DNA of 32,173 nucleotides from an uncultured Lachnospiraceae bacterium (GTDB taxonomy: Bacteria; Bacillota; Clostridia; Lachnospirales; Lachnospiraceae), in assembly GCA_947384285.1 (NCBI GenBank), contig CANDGI010000037.1:1-32173 (forward strand), written 5' to 3'. Numbering within the stretch: position 1 is the stretch's first letter; each line of letters begins with the position of its first letter. The notes under the pieces were generated by a model. That model saw nothing but the letters and a program-made list of their open reading frames with translations. It was not told where the DNA came from and made no database searches. Below, one piece after another: positions 4,942 through 24,819 of the stretch. The translations under genes were made by a program, and so were the position numbers.

Positions 4942-5020
4942 ATCTTCCTCCTTCTCAATGTAAGGCCCCCTCCTCTTCGCTCCGGCGGCAGGCCGTCCGA
5001 AGGCATTTCTATCATGCTTC
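4942..5020 (-). repeat. Leader-like repeat, copy A (upstream of the mscS-family gene)
   Basis: Read on the minus strand, this stretch aligns with 27521-27597. Both contain GAATGCCTTC or AATGCCTTC, then TGCCGCCGGA, then GGGGC, then CATTG and a GGAGGA ribosome-binding site next to an ATG. The shared block includes a GC-rich hairpin (CCGGC/GCCGG type). It is either a mobile leader repeat or a conserved 5' regulatory RNA. Confidence 0.55.
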
Positions 5021-5157
5021 GCATCCGCCTTCTTCCTATGACATTGTTCTTACAGCAATTCAGCCTCCCTCTTTGTTATGCTTTTCTCAGGCAAACCCTT
5101 GCTGTCCCACCCCCTATTGTAGTGAACATACATCCCCTGGTCAAGACTAAAGTTTGA

Positions 5158-11277: not shown

Positions 11278-12978
11278 TTAACAGCCAATCAGTACTTCAC
11301 TTCCGCGGAAAGCAAATCCATATCTGCGTATACGCTCCTTTGCTATCCCTTTCGCAATGAGAACCGCCTCATAATTTTTCTCCTCAATCTGCCTTAGAGC
11401 CGCATTGACCGTATCAGACAGCCCCTTTTCCCCATCGTCCATATCCTGCACCTTGAATTCCAGGATGATTGCATCATCTTCCTGCTTTCTGGGTTCAAGC
11501 ATTACATCATACCTTCCAAATCCGCTCTCCCGGTTCGATGTAACCACATACCTGTCATTCAGCTCTACCATCAGCCCCAGGACAAAGCCATGGTAAAAAC
11601 GTTCCGGCTGGCTTTCAGACGGCTTCTTTCCCGTATCAAAACAGCTGAATGTCCCCATTGCTACCCTGTTCATATAAGCATTCATCGCTTTCAAATCATC
11701 CTTCAGAAGAGCCTTGATAAAATCATTATAGTCTGACATGCGCCTCGCAAACCATCCATGTATCATCCCGCCAAACATCAATTTTACTTCCAGGTTCGTA
11801 ATAGCCAGCTGACACCTAAGGGTATCCGCTTCAAATCCTGCTTCCTCATGTTCCTCAACCCTGATCACTTTCAAATATCCGCTTGCAACAAGAAAACTCC
11901 AAATTGCTGCTTCACTGGCATCCAGCATGTTATATACGATCTGTTCATCTATATATGCAGCCAGATGCTTTCCACAAAGAAGGTCTTCAAATGCCTGCTT
12001 TATCTCCCTGGTTCCCTCCTGAACCAGTTTGCCAACCAGCCTGTTAGAACTGGTATTAGCCCAATAAGCCCGGAATTTCCCGGTAGAAAGATAGTTGATA
12101 ATGGACCATGGATTATAAATATCTGTTTTATTTCCAAATGTAAAACCATCATACCATCTCTTCACATTTTCTTTCTTTTCTGCCATACCATATTCATCCA
12201 GCGCAGCATAAACCTCTTTCTCTGTAAAACCAAAACATTCTGCATACTCATCTGATGTGGCAGTTATCACCTTCAAATGATTCAAATCAGAAAAAACAGA
12301 TTCTTTACTAACCCTCGTAATACCTGTCATAACTGCCCGTTCCAAATACGGGTTCGTTTTAAATGCAGAATGAAACAGGTTTCTGATAAACCCTGTCATT
12401 TCCTCCCAATAACCATTCACATATGCCTCCTGCATAGGAGTATCATATTCGTCTAACAAAATAATAGCTTTTTTACCATAGTATCTTCCAAGAAAATCCG
12501 ATAAAGAACGCAAAGATGCCGCCGCTGTGCTATCTGACATGCCTGCCGAAACCTCCTGATAAAATTCTTTCTCCTTATCATTCAGCAAATTGCCTTCCAG
12601 CAGATAATCATTTTTATTGTATTGTTCTTCTATCGCACGGCATATGCTTTTCCTTGCTTCCAGGAAAAGGGTTTCCTTAATATTGGCAAAGCTTAAGGAT
12701 ATTACAGGGTACGTTCCCTGGAGCCTCTTGTATTTCTCATCCTTCCATATGGAAAGCCCCTCAAACAAATCACCCCTGCCTGCATACTTAACAGAGAAAA
12801 ACTTTTCCAGCATACTCATATTTAAAGTTTTTCCAAATCTCCTGGGACGGGTAATCAGTGTTGCCCTGTCTTTGCTTTCCCACCATTCTTTGATAAACAT
12901 AGTCTTATCCACGTAAAAATTATCCTCTATGATTAACTGTTCAAAATCCTGAAAACCAATGCCCACTGCCCTGGCCAT
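11278..12978 (-). CDS. DUF1703-type AAA ATPase with PD-(D/E)XK nuclease domain
   Basis: This full-length member of the family has 566 residues. Its N-terminal AAA-like ATPase domain (AAA-ATPase_like) begins with [21 protein letters not shown] modified P-loop [17 protein letters not shown] lies at about 41-57, and Walker [12 protein letters not shown] near residue 175. The C-terminal nuclease domain (DUF1703/PDDEXK_9) has YDVMLEP, then AIILEFKV near 485-500, the D...ExK active site. These proteins are abundant and duplicated in gut anaerobes. Their function is unproven, with defence or DNA turnover suggested. GGAAGTGG precedes the ATG. A second, internally deleted relative lies 1.2 kb upstream of it at 14188-14751. 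Confidence 0.9.
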
Positions 12979-13235: not shown

Positions 13236-14127
<892 letters not shown>

Positions 14128-14187: not shown

Positions 14188-14751
14188 CTATTCCGAAAGT
14201 ACCTTGCAGCGTTTTTTATCACAGGCAATTCCATATCGGTAAATGGTTTTCATCCCATCATCCCTCAAAGCCTCTTCATAGTTTCTGTCTTTCATTTGTT
14301 TCAGTGCATTGCTGCATCCCGTCTCAAATGCTACTTGTTCTGCATATTTTATTTCAATCAGGATGCCGGTTTCTTCTTCGATTTCAATATCTGAAAAGCC
14401 AAAATATTCATTATATTGCACGTCTTTTACCGTATATGCATTGAAATTATTAAGGCAAAAAAAAGATCTCTCTTTGGAAATCCTAAGGCATCCAGTCAGC
14501 ACGGCAAAATACAGGCTGCCGTTGGCTTTCAACGCCTGCCCAAACAGGATTCTCCTCAAATTCACCATTTCGCCATAGCAGCCCAGATGATATGCCCGAT
14601 CCAGAGGAACATCATATTCATCAATCCATATTCTTGGACGCATAAACAAATGAACCTTCCCAGGGTTTTCCAAAAGGGTTCGGATAAGGCCTGTTTTATC
14701 AATATAGCAATATCCCATTGTACGCATTTCTTCAAAATCTTCAATGCCCAT
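14188..14751 (-). pseudogene. DUF1703-family ATPase/nuclease with large internal deletions
   Basis: This 187-residue frame is a collapsed copy of the 566-residue family. The N-terminus is normal (MGIEDFEEMRTMGYCYIDKT). At LFMRPR, where the P-loop should follow, it jumps to IWIDEYDVPLDRAY, the Walker B segment, losing about 100 residues including the nucleotide-binding loop. After NEYFGFSDIEIEEETGILIE it jumps again, into the C-terminal nuclease domain (IEIKYAEQV...ALKQMKDRNYEEAL). Both deletions keep the frame. Loss of the P-loop makes ATPase activity unlikely. It could be dead or a minimal nuclease. Its nearest relative is the intact gene at 11278-12978, but the sequences differ a lot, so it is not a recent duplicate. 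Confidence 0.75.
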
Positions 14752-14859
14752 AGGAAGCTTTATTTTGCTGCCATAAGCCTCTTTCCTTTTTATCTTTGTG
14801 TTTTCATCCTATCATAAATCTTATGGCTTTACAAGCTGAATGCCAGACCCGCCCAAAAA

Positions 14860-14958
14860 GGGGCTGTCGGGAAATGATAAGTTATCCACAATATATGCTG
14901 TGACTCTTTCAGTGGCACAGCTACATATTGTAGACAAATTTCATTTCCCGACAGCCCC
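14860..14958 (+). mobile_element. MITE-like 99-bp element, copy 1
   Basis: The element has 18-bp perfect terminal inverted repeats (GGGGCTGTCGGGAAATGA and its complement). Inside, CAATATATGCTGTG pairs imperfectly with CACAGCTACATATTG around a TTTCAGTGG loop. Read on the minus strand, a T-run follows, so it may also terminate the reductase transcript that ends at 14975. Related copies lie at 20236-20334 and 24725-24819. Confidence 0.8.
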
Positions 14959-14974
14959 AGAAAATTAGGAATGT

Positions 14975-16981
14975 TTAGATTTCATTGGCTGCATGGTATC
15001 CACTGCGGATTGCCGCCGCAATGTCTGCGGTGCGCTCGCCAAAGCAGTCGCCGATGAAGGTAACAGGTGCGGTAATGGCACTTGTGTCAAATACATTTTT
15101 CTTAGAGCCTAAGGCGTTGACAATAGTGTCCGCATGGATGGTAAGCTCTGCGTTGTCCTGGGTGTTTTCTGCATAGATAACATTGTCACGGATTTCTTTT
15201 ACTTTTGTATTCACATGCTGTACCACCTTATGTACTTCAAAATCCTTCAGAATCAGAGGAAGAACCGTTGCAGACTCCCCGGATGCAATCTTATCAAGCA
15301 TTTCTACAATGATAACCTTATGGCCTTTGGAAGCTAAATATTCTGCCGTCTCCGTTCCAACCAGGCCGCCGCCTAACACAGCGCAGACGCCAGAAGCCTC
15401 TGCCCCTGCCAGAACATCCCAGGCTGAAAGGATATTGCTGTTTTCCGCCGCCATAGGAAGTGCCATATTGTGGGCGCCCACAGCACAAATCACTGCATCA
15501 AAGCTGTTTAACTCTTCCGCGGCTGGCTCAGTGCCCAGTTTCAATTCCACGGAAAGGCTGGGCAGGATTTTCTCATAATAAGCAACGGCGCGCAGAATCT
15601 CACTTTTTCTGGGCGGTACGGCAGCTAAGTGGATCTGCCCGCCGATTTTGCCGCTTTTTTCAAAAAGAGTTACCTGATGGCCGCGCTTTGCTGCAACCCG
15701 GGCAGCTTCCAGGCCTGCAATTCCTGCGCCGACTATTGCAGTTTTTTTCACGCTGTCTGCTTCTTTTAAGAAAATATCAGCCTCATCCCCGTTTTCCGCA
15801 TTGAGGATACAGGAAATATACCGGCGGTTCTGAATGGCGTCCACACAGCCTTTGTTACAGTTCAAACATTCCCGGATACATTCTCCGGCAGCTGTTTTCA
15901 CTGCAATATCCGGGTCTGTCAGCAGAGACCTTCCATATCCGATGATATCTGCTTCGCCTTGCTCCAAAATCTTTTCCCCAGCTTCTACGGTGACCACTCT
16001 TCCCACCGTGGCAACCGGAATGGAAACAGCGGCCTTTACCTTCTTTGCAATGGGAAGGGTCCAGTTATAGGGAACATCCCCCATGGGCGGAATGGTGTCC
16101 CCCATATTTCCAGTGTGGTTTGCCTGGGCTGCCTGAATCATATCTACCCCTGCCTGTTCCAGAAGCTTTGCAAAGGAAATGGCTTCTTCCTCCAACAGCC
16201 CTCCTTTTCCTCTGAGGGAGCCGTCTGGATTAACGGTAATGAGCGGAAGCTTATATTCCACCGCCATGGAAGGAGCCGCCTCTTTAATGGCCGCCACAAC
16301 CTCAAGGGCATATCTGGTACGGTTTTCAAAGCTTCCGCCGTATGCATCTGTGCGGTGGTTTAACAGTGTGGAGCACATGGAGCCAAGCAGGCGGTCGCCG
16401 TGGATTTCAATGGCGTCCACACCGGCTGTCTCTGCCCTTTTTGCACAATCTGCAATGCTCTGGCGGATTTGAACCAACTGTTCTACGGAAGCCTCATCTA
16501 CAAAATACTGCATATCATGGCGCAGCTTTGCATAGGCCTCCTTGGTTGTCTTTTCTGCAAGCTCCGTCTGTTTTTTGGACTCTTCTTCATTTCCAGCCGC
16601 CTGCGCGTCTGCTGCAGCTTTCCGTGCCATGTTTGCGCCCATAATCAGCCGTCCCACGCCCTGCACATCATATTCTGGGTGGAAAATCTGCAGCGCCAGC
16701 TTGCTGCCGTGGGCATGCAGGGCGTCCGCCAGCTTCTGAAATGCTGGAATCTGGCTGTCATCATAGAGCATGGGAGTGGGGGAAGCAGTGCGGACAGGCG
16801 CAACATCCCCGATTACAATGTATGCCACGCCGCCTTTAGCCAAACGTTCATAAAAGCTAAGGCTCCGGGAGCCGATGGAGCCGTCCCGCTCCTCATAGCC
16901 CGTGGTCAGCGGAGGAAACATAATTCTGTTTTTCAGCGTCATACTGCCTGCCTGGATTGGATCTAATAGTTTTTTTCCCAT
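14975..16981 (-). CDS. Old Yellow Enzyme-type FMN/Fe-S/FAD reductase, candidate bilirubin reductase
   Basis: The ATG at 16981 follows AAAAAGGAG at ten bases and gives 668 residues. The TIM-barrel FMN domain starts LLDPIQAGSMTLKNRIMFPP. The iron-sulfur cysteines are C372, C375, C379 and C391 (ECLNCNKGC...C). The FAD domain begins with AIVGAGIAGLEAA (about 415) and an NAD(P) motif LGGGLVGTETAEYLA follows. This is the 2,4-dienoyl-CoA reductase/enoate reductase layout. At the active site the usual HGAHGYL is replaced by HGDRLLGS (D196, R197). A helical insertion of about 35 residues (about 117-160) precedes it. As I recall, an Asp-Arg pair is the reported signature of gut bilirubin reductase BilR; that assignment is a hypothesis. 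It follows a second reductase by 80 bp and shares its AraC-type neighbour. Confidence 0.85.
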   Translation of the reverse strand: MGKKLLDPIQAGSMTLKNRIMFPPLTTGYEERDGSIGSRSLSFYERLAKGGVAYIVIGDVAPVRTASPTPMLYDDSQIPAFQKLADALHAHGSKLALQIFHPEYDVQGVGRLIMGANMARKAAADAQAAGNEEESKKQTELAEKTTKEAYAKLRHDMQYFVDEASVEQLVQIRQSIADCAKRAETAGVDAIEIHGDRLLGSMCSTLLNHRTDAYGGSFENRTRYALEVVAAIKEAAPSMAVEYKLPLITVNPDGSLRGKGGLLEEEAISFAKLLEQAGVDMIQAAQANHTGNMGDTIPPMGDVPYNWTLPIAKKVKAAVSIPVATVGRVVTVEAGEKILEQGEADIIGYGRSLLTDPDIAVKTAAGECIRECLNCNKGCVDAIQNRRYISCILNAENGDEADIFLKEADSVKKTAIVGAGIAGLEAARVAAKRGHQVTLFEKSGKIGGQIHLAAVPPRKSEILRAVAYYEKILPSLSVELKLGTEPAAEELNSFDAVICAVGAHNMALPMAAENSNILSAWDVLAGAEASGVCAVLGGGLVGTETAEYLASKGHKVIIVEMLDKIASGESATVLPLILKDFEVHKVVQHVNTKVKEIRDNVIYAENTQDNAELTIHADTIVNALGSKKNVFDTSAITAPVTFIGDCFGERTADIAAAIRSGYHAANEI

Positions 16982-17060
16982 AGTGTTTGTTCTCCTTTTT
17001 TGTGTTGTGGTCTGCACGGCCAAATGATAGGTGTGAAACAGTTGGCCGCTCCAGGTTATG

Positions 17061-18977
17061 TTAAAGAGTTTTTGCAAAATTGTGCGCATTTGTTATGGCG
17101 TCTTTTAAATTCCCTGACTTCTCGCAGTCTCCAAGCACATGGGCATGGCTGCAAGGCACGGGAGCCGGGGTATACCCCACGGCAAAGACCAGCGTATCCG
17201 CATCTGCGATTACATGTTCATTTCCATCTTTTTCATAGGTGATTCCCGTTTCATCTGCTTTTGTGACAGTGCTGTTTAATTCAAGCTTCACGCCCTTTCG
17301 GACAAGGCGCTGGGTCAGTGCGCTTTTTGCAGGGCCGCCTTCTCCAGCCATCAGCGAATCTGTCATTTCAATCACAGTCACATCCCGGTTTGCAGGGAAC
17401 TTGTCATCAATCAGGGGAGCCAGGTAATCCGCGGTTTCACAGCCTACAGAGCCGCCGCCTAAAATCACAATTTTCCGTCCTGGAAATCCTTTGCCGGACA
17501 AAACATCATCTGCCGTCATGGTCTGTTTAAAGCATTGGAAGGCTTGGATTTCCTTTGGCCTTGCGCCTGTTGTGCAGATAATTTCATACCCTTCAAAATC
17601 ACTGGAAATCATCTCCGGGGTCACTTCACAGCCCATGCGGACTTCAACCCCAGCGTTTTTCAGCCGACCTGCCATGAATTTAACCACCTTGCATAATTCC
17701 TGTTTTCCAATTGGAACAGCCGCTAACCGAAGCAATCCCCCAAGCTCCTGGCCTTTCTCACAGAGAACCACCTCATGGCCCCGCATTTTGGCGGTATATG
17801 CCGCTTCCATCCCTGCCGGTCCGCCGCCGATGACCAGTACTTTTTTCTTCTCCGGCGCAGGTTCAATGGCATCCGATTCTACGGAAGGATTGACGGTGCA
17901 TGCAATTGGTTTGCCGAACATAATTCCCGTCAGGCAGCGGCCGCAGCCGATACAAGGCCGGATGTCGTCTGTTTTTCCGGCAGCAGCTTTATTGGCAAAT
18001 TCACTGTCGCAAAGGTTGGGCCTTCCAATCATGCAGATATCCGTCTTGCCGTTTGCAATCAATTCTTCTGCAATCCAGGGCTCATTGATGCGGGCCACCG
18101 TGGAAACTGGAATGTTCAAATGCCTGCGGATTTCCTCGGACGCATGGGCATGGGGCGCCGGCGAGGTTCCCGGCGCTGGCATGGAGCTTCCCCGTTTGAT
18201 GGTGTTGCCGCCGGACACATGGATAAAGTTTACGCCTGCTTTTTCTAATTGCTTTGACACATAAATCATGTCATTTAACGTCAATCCCCCGTCGCTGTAC
18301 TCGTCGCCGGAAATCCGCACGTCAATGATAAAATCTTCTCCGCACTGTTTTCTTATGGCTTCAATTACCTCCAGGGTCAGCCGCAGACGTCCGTTGATGT
18401 CCCCGCCGTACTCGTCGGTGCGCTTGTTGTAAAGAGGTGTGAGAAAACCGCCCAGCAGCCCATGGGCATGTGCAGCCTGGATTTCCACCCCATCGCCGCC
18501 TGCCTTCTGAAAACGGCGGGCTGCTTCCCCAAACTGTTTTACAATGGTGTGAAGCTCTTCCACGGAGGCAGGCCGGGGCGCTGATTTGGCATAGTACGGC
18601 CCCACATTAGAAGGCGCGATGAGCTGAGGGGTTCCTGGAATGGGAAATGCCATGTAAGCTGGATGGAAAAGCTGTGATAAAATCTTCGTATCATACTGGT
18701 GCACAGCATCCACCAGCTTCTTCCAGCCTGGAATGTAGCTGTCGTCATAGATGGACATGTCCCCAGGCAGATACGTGTAAACGGGCTCTACAGTTGTCAC
18801 CTCTGTGATAATCAGGCCTACGCCGCCCTTGGCACGGTTGGAATAATGTTCAACCAAAGCGTCCGTCACATATCCCTTGTCCGCCAGGTTGGTGGACAGG
18901 GGCGGCATAAAAATGCGGTTCTTTACGGTTGTGTTCCCAATCTGGATTGGGGAAAACAGATGCGGAAAATGATTCAT
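17061..18977 (-). CDS. Old Yellow Enzyme-type FMN/Fe-S/FAD reductase
   Basis: The 638-residue protein has the same three-part layout as its downstream neighbour. The FMN barrel starts LFSPIQIGNTTVKNRIFMPP. The cluster cysteines are C342, C345, C348 and C360 (CIGCGRC...C), VLVIGGGPAGMEAAY is near 380 and VILGGGSVGCETADYLAP near 505. The active-site loop is EIQAAHAHGLLGGFLTPLYN, so the usual EIHGAHGYL carries Gln in place of the first His. AAAGGAG precedes the ATG. It is probably co-transcribed with the reductase at 14975 and opposite an AraC regulator. Substrates of this family include enoates, dienoyl-CoAs, steroids and bile-acid intermediates; nothing here decides between them. Confidence 0.88.
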   Translation of the reverse strand: MNHFPHLFSPIQIGNTTVKNRIFMPPLSTNLADKGYVTDALVEHYSNRAKGGVGLIITEVTTVEPVYTYLPGDMSIYDDSYIPGWKKLVDAVHQYDTKILSQLFHPAYMAFPIPGTPQLIAPSNVGPYYAKSAPRPASVEELHTIVKQFGEAARRFQKAGGDGVEIQAAHAHGLLGGFLTPLYNKRTDEYGGDINGRLRLTLEVIEAIRKQCGEDFIIDVRISGDEYSDGGLTLNDMIYVSKQLEKAGVNFIHVSGGNTIKRGSSMPAPGTSPAPHAHASEEIRRHLNIPVSTVARINEPWIAEELIANGKTDICMIGRPNLCDSEFANKAAAGKTDDIRPCIGCGRCLTGIMFGKPIACTVNPSVESDAIEPAPEKKKVLVIGGGPAGMEAAYTAKMRGHEVVLCEKGQELGGLLRLAAVPIGKQELCKVVKFMAGRLKNAGVEVRMGCEVTPEMISSDFEGYEIICTTGARPKEIQAFQCFKQTMTADDVLSGKGFPGRKIVILGGGSVGCETADYLAPLIDDKFPANRDVTVIEMTDSLMAGEGGPAKSALTQRLVRKGVKLELNSTVTKADETGITYEKDGNEHVIADADTLVFAVGYTPAPVPCSHAHVLGDCEKSGNLKDAITNAHNFAKTL

Positions 18978-19037
18978 AGCTGGTTCTCCTTTCGTTCTTT
19001 AAGCAATCACCTGCTTTTCTTACGGTTCCTAACATTC

Positions 19038-19087
19038 ATTATATTTGGAAAAAGGATGAAATAACTATTATTTTTTGATATAATAGT
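19038..19087. promoter_or_regulatory. Divergent promoter/operator between the reductase operon and the AraC gene
   Basis: The minus-strand -10 TATAAT is at 19043-19038, with no good -35, as expected for an activated promoter. The plus-strand extended -10 (TGATATAAT, box 19079-19084) serves the araC-type gene. A perfect inverted repeat ACTATTAT (19064-19071) and ATAATAGT (19080-19087) overlaps that -10 and could be the regulator's site. Confidence 0.5.
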
Positions 19088-19197
19088 ATGAAATATTGAT
19101 GTTTGAACTTTCTATATCTACATACGGTATCACAGCGCTAAAGCGAAGAAACCATATTTCGATACATAGATTATTCCCTCTGGAAATGGAGAGGCTT

Positions 19198-20028
19198 ATG
19201 CAAAATTTATTCAAAATCAGGAAATACAGCCTGGATGCAGGCGCAAGCCGCATCTTCCGCCCAGGCCGCCGCTACCACATTATTTTTGTTCTTCGGGGTG
19301 CCTGCCAGCTTTCCGAAAACGGCCAGCAGTTCTGCCGCCCTTCTGATATTATTTTCCTAAAGCCCGGGCAGTCCCACAGGCTTCTGGCTCCTTTGCCAAA
19401 AACCTCCTGTTTGCTGCTCTGTATCAGCATACCGGAAGAGTCATTAACCCTTCTTTCCGATTCCACCTGTGACCTGGCAGCCAGCTTTCGGTTTGCTCCC
19501 CATGAAGCCGCCATCATCCATGGGGAAACGAAATCTGTCCTGCTGCTTCGCAATATGGCAATGAAGCTGGATACGCTGAGGAAGGAAGCCATTGAGCTGG
19601 GGACAGAATTATATGAAAAAAGCCTGTTTACCACTTTTCTGGTGCTGTTTCTGCGCACCTGCATTCAGAGCGACCAGGTCCACCAGTCCCATCAGAGGAA
19701 AATGCTGATGATTGATGACGTCTTTGAATATATCAGCCAGCATTTGACAGAAGACCTTTCCCTGAAAAAGCTGGAGGAGGAATTTTTTATCTCCGGGGAA
19801 CATATTTCCAGGGAATTTAAAAAGAGTACGGGGGTTACGCTGCACTCCTATATCACCCATGCCCGGATTGATTTGAGCAAAAAATATCTTCTGCAGGGAC
19901 TGTCGGTTCGTGACGTCTGCCAGCTCTGCGGATTCAGCAGCTATAACCATTTTTTCAAGATGTTTAAAAAGGAATGCGGCGTGACGCCTATGGAATATTA
20001 CCGGAAAACACAACTGGCAATGCATTGA
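19198..20028 (+). CDS. AraC-family transcriptional regulator
   Basis: The ATG at 19198, placed six bases after GGAG, gives 276 residues; a start further upstream would leave almost no 5' leader. An N-terminal cupin-like ligand domain (about 1-140) contains RPGRRYHIIFVLRG, PSDIIFLKPGQSHRL and related strands. The C-terminal double helix-turn-helix (about 175-270) has LSLKKLEEEFFISGEHISRE and VRDVCQLCGFSSYNHFFKMF, ending FKKECGVTPMEYYR, the AraC signature. It is transcribed away from the two flavin reductases with a shared 220-bp control region, so it probably activates them in response to their substrate. Confidence 0.92.
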   Translation: MQNLFKIRKYSLDAGASRIFRPGRRYHIIFVLRGACQLSENGQQFCRPSDIIFLKPGQSHRLLAPLPKTSCLLLCISIPEESLTLLSDSTCDLAASFRFAPHEAAIIHGETKSVLLLRNMAMKLDTLRKEAIELGTELYEKSLFTTFLVLFLRTCIQSDQVHQSHQRKMLMIDDVFEYISQHLTEDLSLKKLEEEFFISGEHISREFKKSTGVTLHSYITHARIDLSKKYLLQGLSVRDVCQLCGFSSYNHFFKMFKKECGVTPMEYYRKTQLAMH

Positions 20029-20235
20029 AAAGCCCCTGCTTTTATGGCAGGATAATTTTAGAAGCAAGCTCCCAAAGCTGCCGGAGGAATTAAAAGAGGA
20101 CAGCAGCGATATTTTTTATGGGCGGAGTTTATCAATTCCAAACGGAAGGAGGACTTTGAAAAGAGCACAGGAAATCAAAAACCTTTCAACACCCAACAAG
20201 AACAAAGTCATGATTCATATGCATCTTAAGCAGAA
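20029..20235. other. Gap after the AraC gene
   Basis: A CCCTGC-TTTTAT-GGCAGG hairpin follows the stop codon without a strong T-run. A plus-strand stretch around 20070-20160 (KLPEELKEDSSDIFYGRS) looks protein-like but has no start and is not recognised. It may be another gene remnant. Confidence 0.3.
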
Positions 20236-20334
20236 GGGGTTATCGGGAAATGATACGTTATCTACAATATATACTGTGACGCTTTCAGCAGCACAACTAT
20301 ATATTGTAGACAAATTCCATTTTCCGGCAACCCC
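20236..20334 (+). mobile_element. MITE-like 99-bp element, copy 2
   Basis: It has the same length and orientation as copy 1. Its ends GGGGTTATCGGGAAATGA and CATTTTCCGGCAACCCC have drifted from perfect complementarity. The interior (CTACAATATATACTGTGAC, then TTTCAGCAGCACAAC) is conserved. CCCCTTTTT at the right end could act as a terminator on the plus strand. Confidence 0.8.
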
Positions 20335-20385
20335 TTTTTCTGCGCGCTTCCATAATTTACCCAGATAAAAATTTTTCTACAGCTC

Positions 20386-20416
20386 CTATCCTTTTTTCCT
20401 TCTGGCTCGTTATACT
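20386..20416 (+). promoter_or_regulatory. Candidate ECF-type promoter of the second sigma operon
   Basis: A CCTATCC element followed by a T/C-rich spacer and CTCGTTATACT (box about 20406-20416) resembles promoters of ECF sigma genes in Clostridia. No sigma-A -35 is seen at 17 bp. Autoregulation is inferred. Confidence 0.35.
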
Positions 20417-20468
20417 TAACAGAGAGGACAAACGTTTGCAGCTTTCAAAAATGAGAAGGGAGGATTTT

Positions 20469-20996
20469 GTGAATGCAGACTTTCTTTTAATCCGAAAAAT
20501 CAAGCAGGGGGATGAGGATGCCTTTGATAAGCTGGTTCGGAAATACTATAAAGATATTTTAAATTACTGCCGCTATCACTGCCCAGACCAGGAATACGCC
20601 GAGGATTTCACCCAGGAAACCTTTGTGCGCTTTTTCAAAAATATATCATCCTACTGTTTTCAGGGAAAAACCAAAAATTATTTATATACCATTGCGGGAA
20701 ACTTATGCCGGGATTATTACAAAAAGAAGCGGGAGATTCCCATGGAGGAAACGTCATTCGAGCAAGCCCTGGAACCGGAAACCTGCCAAATGGAACATGC
20801 GGTGGACAAACTCACGGTAGAATGGGCCATACAGCAGCTTCCAGAGGAATTCAAAGAAGTGGTAATCCTCTATTATTTCCAGGAATTGAAACTGGCTGAA
20901 ATCGCAAAGGTAACACAGACTGGGCTTCCACTGGTAAAATACCGCATCCGGCAGGCAAAAAAACAGCTGGCTCAGTTATTAGAAAAAGACGGATAA
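20469..20996 (+). CDS. ECF-type RNA polymerase sigma factor (second)
   Basis: The GTG at 20469, five bases after GGGAGG, is preferred over upstream TTG/ATG codons and gives 175 residues. Sigma region 2 is DEDAFDKLVRKYYKDILNYC, then QEYAEDFTQETFVRFFKNI. Region 4 is LPEEFKEVVILYYFQELKLA and VTQTGLPLVKYRIRQAKKQL. Length and layout are typical. It leads a plus-strand cluster with a membrane protein and an ABC-2 type exporter pair, so it probably answers to envelope or antimicrobial stress and controls that transporter. The next gene may be its anti-sigma factor. Confidence 0.9.
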   Translation: MNADFLLIRKIKQGDEDAFDKLVRKYYKDILNYCRYHCPDQEYAEDFTQETFVRFFKNISSYCFQGKTKNYLYTIAGNLCRDYYKKKREIPMEETSFEQALEPETCQMEHAVDKLTVEWAIQQLPEEFKEVVILYYFQELKLAEIAKVTQTGLPLVKYRIRQAKKQLAQLLEKDG

Positions 20997-24724: not shown

Positions 24725-24819
24725 GTCTGCCGGGAAATGGAATCTGCCTGCAATACATAGCCGCGCCACTGAAAGCGCCACAGTATATATTGAAGTTAAC
24801 TTATCATTTCCCGGCAGAC
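24725..24819 (-). mobile_element. MITE-like element, copy 3 (inverted, 95 bp)
   Basis: Its reverse complement aligns with copies 1 and 2: ends GTCTGCCGGGAAATGATAAG and CATTTCCCGGCAGAC, with a CAATATATACTGTG...TTTCAGTGG interior. It is in the opposite orientation and lacks about two bases at each end. It lies in the gap between two convergent genes. Confidence 0.78.

Follow-up and report, generated by a model that had tools for sequence, protein, structure and literature searches.

A predicted bilV-bilR operon with a candidate AraC-family regulator and a conserved promoter site in an uncultured Lachnospiraceae bacterium

The reduction of bilirubin by gut bacteria has a bearing on the amount of pigment returning to the host (PMC13252198, PMC10769871; statements on both sources refer to the accessible portions of their text). 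A paper of 2024 had reported urobilinogen from the bilirubin reductase BilR alone (PMC10769871); according to a June 2026 preprint, BilR alone stops at divinyl-urobilinogen, and urobilinogen needs the vinyl reductase BilV, to which the motif AHAH was assigned (PMC13252198). In the same preprint, the Faecalibacillus intestinalis bilR-bilV operon yielded urobilinogen in E. coli. Here, a stretch of 32,173 nucleotides from an uncultured Lachnospiraceae bacterium (contig CANDGI010000037.1; hereafter, the window) was analyzed, for which an initial annotation had proposed that the gene at 14975..16981 may reduce bilirubin to urobilinogen. The identity of this gene as bilR was borne out, with the correction that urobilinogen also requires BilV according to PMC13252198. 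We read the locus, with a probability of roughly 0.87, as a bilV-bilR operon making urobilinogen, which an AraC-family protein probably regulates through a conserved site.

Both enzymes belong to already known families, described in 2024 and 2026, and the regulator with its conserved site is the part that looks undescribed. Among the papers listed in literature searches, with supplements outside their scope, none concerned AraC-type regulation of bilR or bilV or the control of a bilV-bilR operon. The words 'regulator', 'promoter' and 'AraC' are absent from the accessible main text of PMC13252198, and that of PMC10769871 contains no 'AraC' and a single 'regulator', namely the MarR protein BilQ. 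The candidate regulator and candidate site described below make the question of operon control directly testable.

Among the described systems, the F. intestinalis locus (L037; PMC13252198) resembles the window in its long BilR chain (71% identity), the insertion, the HGDR motif and a bilV directly upstream. Unlike the window, its genome contains no AraC ortholog at 1e-15, and no promoter block was found in the 677 nucleotides upstream of its bilV. The Ruminococcus gnavus enzyme is likewise a long form with HGDR and a domain for flavin adenine dinucleotide (FAD) and NAD in one chain; however, its HGDR stands at 164-167, which by numbering implies no insertion (PMC10769871), and its bilV lies at a separate locus (PMC13252198). 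The short BilR proteins of Clostridioides difficile and Clostridium symbiosum share the HGDR-bearing Old Yellow Enzyme (OYE) domain but are without the C-terminal domains, and these species carry the flavodoxin-like BilS and the MarR protein BilQ (PMC10769871). In the window, neither is an immediate neighbor, as had been noted before; the nearest genes encode an AAA-ATPase-like open reading frame (ORF), BilV and the AraC protein.

The gene bilR (14975..16981, minus strand) is predicted to encode a long-form bilirubin reductase of 668 amino acids belonging to the insertion subtype. The ORF is real and its coordinates had been given correctly: a GGAG ribosome site precedes the start at 16981, at which many relatives align, and the mechanical ORF runs further, to an ATG at 17089 within the preceding gene. 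The NCBIfam profile NF045599 ('bilirubin reductase, long form') matched the protein with 1021.1 bits (curated cut-off 750) and NF045592 ('bilirubin reductase') with 515.7 bits (curated cut-off 425). The Pfam domains PF00724, for flavin mononucleotide (FMN; 168.2 bits), and PF07992, for FAD/NAD (81.8 bits), are both present; this is the pair demanded by the filter of the BilR discoverers (PMC10769871), and the FAD/NAD domain thus lies within the same chain, in agreement with the initial annotation. The remaining Pfam rows were weaker, nearly all being nucleotide-binding-fold matches to the same C-terminal region.

The HGDR motif is encoded at 16391..16402 (minus strand) and comprises BilR residues 194-197, so that the earlier numbering of D196 and R197 was correct. 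In named genomes, 156 relatives were detected, the best 80 of which were kept and underlie all counts out of 80 given here. HGDR is present in 80/80 of these and invariant in an alignment of 40 of the 87 available BilR rows, and is therefore not a chance feature. Phylogenetic analysis with IQ-TREE (72 rows, including F. intestinalis BilR and BilV and four OYE outgroup rows) placed the window's BilR within a group of 40 long and two short BilR sequences with support of 100/100, in a sampling that contained no named sequence from R. gnavus, C. symbiosum or C. difficile and none of BaiCD/BaiH or of an enoate reductase. Within this group, 37 insertion-form rows, among them the window's BilR and that of F. 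intestinalis, formed a subgroup (99/99); according to PMC13252198, the BilR subtypes trace to an earlier study. The relation between BilR and BilV and the deeper branching order are unsure because the four outgroup rows have very long branches.

The insertion itself covers BilR residues 119-146 (16544..16627, minus strand) as aligned against loci L017 and L018; the segment is missing from L017-L019, and L017 and L018 carry HGDR at 164-167. A helical insertion just before the motif had been described previously, and it does exist and does precede HGDR; however, it spans 28 alignment columns rather than about 35, and 47 residues separate the two. In an AlphaFold2 model based on the 40-row alignment (predicted local distance difference test, pLDDT, 90.2; predicted template modeling score, pTM, 0.87), the insertion belongs to a helical pair formed by residues 106-128 and 132-163, and HGDR directly follows the barrel strand 190-193.

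The second reductase noted in the vicinity by the initial annotation, along with the AraC regulator, is indeed there but is no unrelated extra: from its sequence, P0002 is to be classed as the vinyl reductase BilV. Its gene (17061..18977, minus strand) encodes 638 amino acids with 78% identity to F. intestinalis BilV, and its AHAH motif (18462..18473, minus strand; residues 169-172) stands at the HGDR position and is invariant in 26/26 rows of an alignment made up of the window and 25 of the 38 bilV-bearing named loci. In the tree, P0002 and F. intestinalis BilV share a group of 26 rows (99/98), and P0002 agrees with the BilV of PMC13252198 in the AHAH motif, in domain order and in adjoining bilR. 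The two window genes are 79 nucleotides apart, each with a good ribosome site. Among the named loci, bilV lies at the bilR locus on the same strand in at least 38/80 (29 upstream, 9 downstream), a lower bound since a bilV absent from a short contig may lie outside it. With BilV beside BilR, the two genes would therefore be expected to form a co-transcribed bilV-bilR operon whose products reduce bilirubin fully to urobilinogen.

Divergently from bilV-bilR, the araC gene occupies 19198..20028 on the plus strand and encodes 276 amino acids, counted from M35 of a 310-residue ORF opened at 19096; the start is probably at 19198, because all 10 rows conserve M35 and GGAGAGG precedes its ATG. The protein matched HTH_18 with 66.5 bits (cut-off 33.6) and AraC_binding with 23.4 bits (cut-off 21.1). 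Mean identity among the rows amounts to 0.75 in the helix-turn-helix half and 0.48 in the sensor half, where four cysteines (C80, C105, C125 and C189) are invariant over the 10 rows and may form a redox, metal or haem site. An araC ortholog of at least 45% identity was found at the bil locus in 8/80 named loci. Different AraC proteins stand upstream of the operon elsewhere, one kind at L038, L039, L054 and L082 and another at L041 and L044; furthermore, L060 has a relative of 35% identity, L040 a distant AraC protein (23%) downstream, L093 a MarR and L036 a LacI regulator (the Pfam scan at these loci covered ten neighbor proteins, among them the AraC protein of L020). At least three different kinds of AraC-type regulators adjoin bil operons.

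Between araC and bilV lies a conserved divergent-promoter block of 47 nucleotides (19038..19084, minus strand) with the sequence ATTATATCAAAAAATNATARTTATTTCA...TATAAT. Its right end is a candidate -10 element of bilV (TATAAT, 19038-19043, minus strand), and at its left end an extended -10 candidate of araC ends at 19084, which the promoter scan recovered at 19056-19084 with 10 of 12 positions. The block was detected in the window and in 9/80 named loci with 51.5-68.3 bits, and the highest score at any other scanned locus was 17.8; since the matrix was built from the same ten loci, it is the score gap and not the match that carries information. Mean pairwise identity is 0.82 over the first 30 columns, compared with 0.39 and 0.27 in the 60-nucleotide flanks. 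Within the block lies the candidate operator ATCAAAAAATAATAGTTATTTCA (19057..19079, minus strand), the sole exact copy in its own genome assembly; judged from its position, it would lie at about -26 to -48 relative to bilV and would also extend into the araC promoter. The conservation of the block was judged against the four-fold (neutral) sites of bilV, comparing the window with five relatives from the nine block loci, and the conserved block site was the better conserved in 5/5 comparisons (identity at site/four-fold sites: L020 0.87/0.58, L022 0.97/0.38, L033 0.87/0.38, L035 0.63/0.38 and L042 0.93/0.59). No good -35 element was found ahead of the bilV -10 candidate, either by eye or in the promoter scan, which over 14700-20500 returned 15 promoter-like sites versus 7.0 expected.

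Regulator, block and bil genes were then compared across genomes. A full-length AraC protein of at least 43% identity occurs in 10 of the 17 genomes searched, so that the notion of an AraC gene always beside the bil genes was rejected; nine of these 10 have the block, which is absent from the bil locus in the 7/17 genomes without the full-length protein. The exact site was found once in each of the nine block genomes and not in seven others, including that of L025; since the search pattern derives from these nine together with the window, the information lies solely in the single copy per genome and in the absences. A wider regulon was sought in the window's own assembly (3.23 Mb, 74 contigs, 83% complete), with nothing convincing: one exact site, one with two mismatches and, at up to three mismatches, 14 operator matches versus 6 control matches. 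In the 16 other genomes, up to two mismatches gave weak extra sites, also where the AraC protein is not present, and G313 and G315, both without it, have one 1-mismatch site each. Among 397 family genomes, 15 have an operator match with at most one mismatch (reversed control, 6); exact copies occur in two only, the window's genome and G775.

Several observations weigh against our reading. The window's enzymes share 71% (BilR) and 78% (BilV) identity with the F. intestinalis pair, the predicted BilV model is weaker than that of BilR (pLDDT 79), the NCBIfam library searched holds no curated BilV model, and the BilV assay comes from a preprint in which BilV was never expressed without BilR (PMC13252198). 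The promoter scan also gave a further weak minus-strand candidate at 19107-19080. In the genome of L025, the 43% AraC protein and bilR are on different contigs, and the block is absent. Genome G775 (94% complete) has an AraC ortholog of 62% identity (G775:C88:5944-6837, L196) with the exact operator 5' of the gene; it yielded no BilR match, no BilV match at 1e-30 (the window's genome matched in the same search) and no trace of bilV in the 8.5 kb around its araC. This genome may have lost bilV-bilR, or the regulator may have a further role. Given the cases of G775 and L025, the link between regulator and operon is not strict.

The case of G775, which keeps araC and site without bilR or bilV, also favors the best-surviving alternative, namely that the AraC protein is an unrelated, self-regulating neighbor and the block its autoregulatory promoter. 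We regard this as a serious, if somewhat improbable, option. Against it, the bilV -10 candidate is within the block, and two natural arrangements keep the block with bilV: in the natural REARRANGEMENTS at L035, araC lies upstream of bilV on the same strand with the block between the two genes, and in the natural REARRANGEMENTS at L042, the block stays with bilV, and araC is 26 kb off on the same contig, without a block. This separation may be an insertion or an assembly artefact; the ORF adjoining bilV in L042 (G314:C213) resembles a transposase by eye. At L028, araC, block and bilR are arranged divergently; its genome shows no BilV, the sole P0002 match being 36% identical and on the contig of bilR.

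Under the favored reading of a regulated bilV-bilR operon, with the chemistry taken from the cited papers, BilR would relay electrons from NAD(P)H via FAD, a 4Fe-4S cluster and FMN and so reduce the two methine bridges (C5, C15) of bilirubin; R197 or D196 is the putative proton donor. BilV, with the same fold and its AHAH site, would reduce the two vinyl groups, the pair together giving urobilinogen. The AraC protein probably occupies the conserved inter-promoter site and would activate bilV-bilR, as the lack of a recognizable -35 element before the conserved bilV -10 element suggests; it probably also limits its own transcription. That it is a dedicated bile-pigment sensor, binding a bilin or responding to redox state via C80, C105, C125 and C189, and switches on complete bilirubin reduction is a tentative and rather doubtful proposal; with G775 in mind, a bilin-sensing role dedicated to the bil operon is put forward as a hypothesis. 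If true, pigment-induced expression would be a recurring feature of bil operons, since at least three kinds of AraC-type regulators sit beside them.

The main substrate of the pair might also be a different bilin, for example biliverdin or a conjugated pigment, with bilirubin as a side substrate, which we consider unlikely. In favor of this, direct action of BilR on biliverdin was reported; insertion-type BilR is dominant also in herbivores, which excrete both pigments (PMC13252198).

A generic dienoyl-CoA or enoate reductase of amino acid or fatty acid breakdown is very improbable, even though the nearest solved structures found by Foldseek with the BilR model are 2-naphthoyl-CoA reductase (TM-score 0.82) and E. 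coli dienoyl-CoA reductase (1PS9; 0.81), and the fold is that of 1PS9 and 6QKG. With 1PS9, BilR shares the four invariant cysteines 372, 375, 379 and 391 (15809..15868, minus strand), the expected 4Fe-4S ligands, and H289 stands opposite a histidine; however, K244 is found where 1PS9 carries arginine, and the HGDR segment, identical in 80/80 kept relatives, replaces the Y166 loop, to which it aligns with a two-residue gap. Y166 is the proton donor of the E. coli enzyme, and a DR-to-AA change in HGDR lowers the activity of R. gnavus BilR (PMC10769871). Membership of BilR in FadH was rejected from the alignment with 1PS9. That BilR is a BaiCD-type enone reductase of bile acids or steroids can practically be dismissed: profile NF041087 does match BilR over residues 153-668, but its 389.1 bits are far under the cut-off of 825, and HGDR and the position in the BilR clade (in a tree without characterized BaiCD) also argue against it. 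BaiCD membership was likewise rejected for BilV (443 bits versus 825).

The nearest named BilR relative among the best 80 of 156 is that of Petralouisia muris (90%), and the window therefore probably stems from a rodent-gut member of the Lachnospiraceae related to that species. The window's genome has four matches to the N-terminal model, one over the cut-off; 13/14 control genomes matched, none over it. BilR is uncommon in family and class genomes, with a match at 1e-100 in 7/299 family genomes and 3/391 class genomes over the cut-off, the window's own included in both counts. Close plasmid copies of bilR were sought and rejected, all 507 matching plasmid records being below 60% identity. One record from the plasmid collection, OY725841.1 (93.6 kb, Subdoligranulum variabile), has at 45085-47001 a gene whose product shares 50% identity with the window's BilR over nearly its full length, possibly a plasmid-borne bilirubin reductase.

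The araC-bilV-bilR module is bordered on both sides by copies of a palindromic repeat of about 103 bp (14856-14962 and 20232-20341), with a third copy at 24727-24817. With both strands of the palindrome counted, the repeat has 53 matches in the window's genome and 44 in that of P. muris; two relatives have 16 and 40, and a genome of the same genus, 99% complete, has none. Compared with P. muris, the module is inverted relative to an extracytoplasmic function (ECF) sigma cluster, and the inversion may have run through copies of the repeat. Rfam gave no match at the bilV-bilR operon; a GA-cis RNA (RF02987) was found at 4955-5040 on the minus strand (42.2 bits, gathering score 34.7). Two AAA-ATPase-like/PDDEXK_9 ORFs lie at 11278-12978 and 14188-14751 (minus strand), the shorter possibly a remnant, and between them, at 13236-13880, is a recombinase with a resolvase domain.
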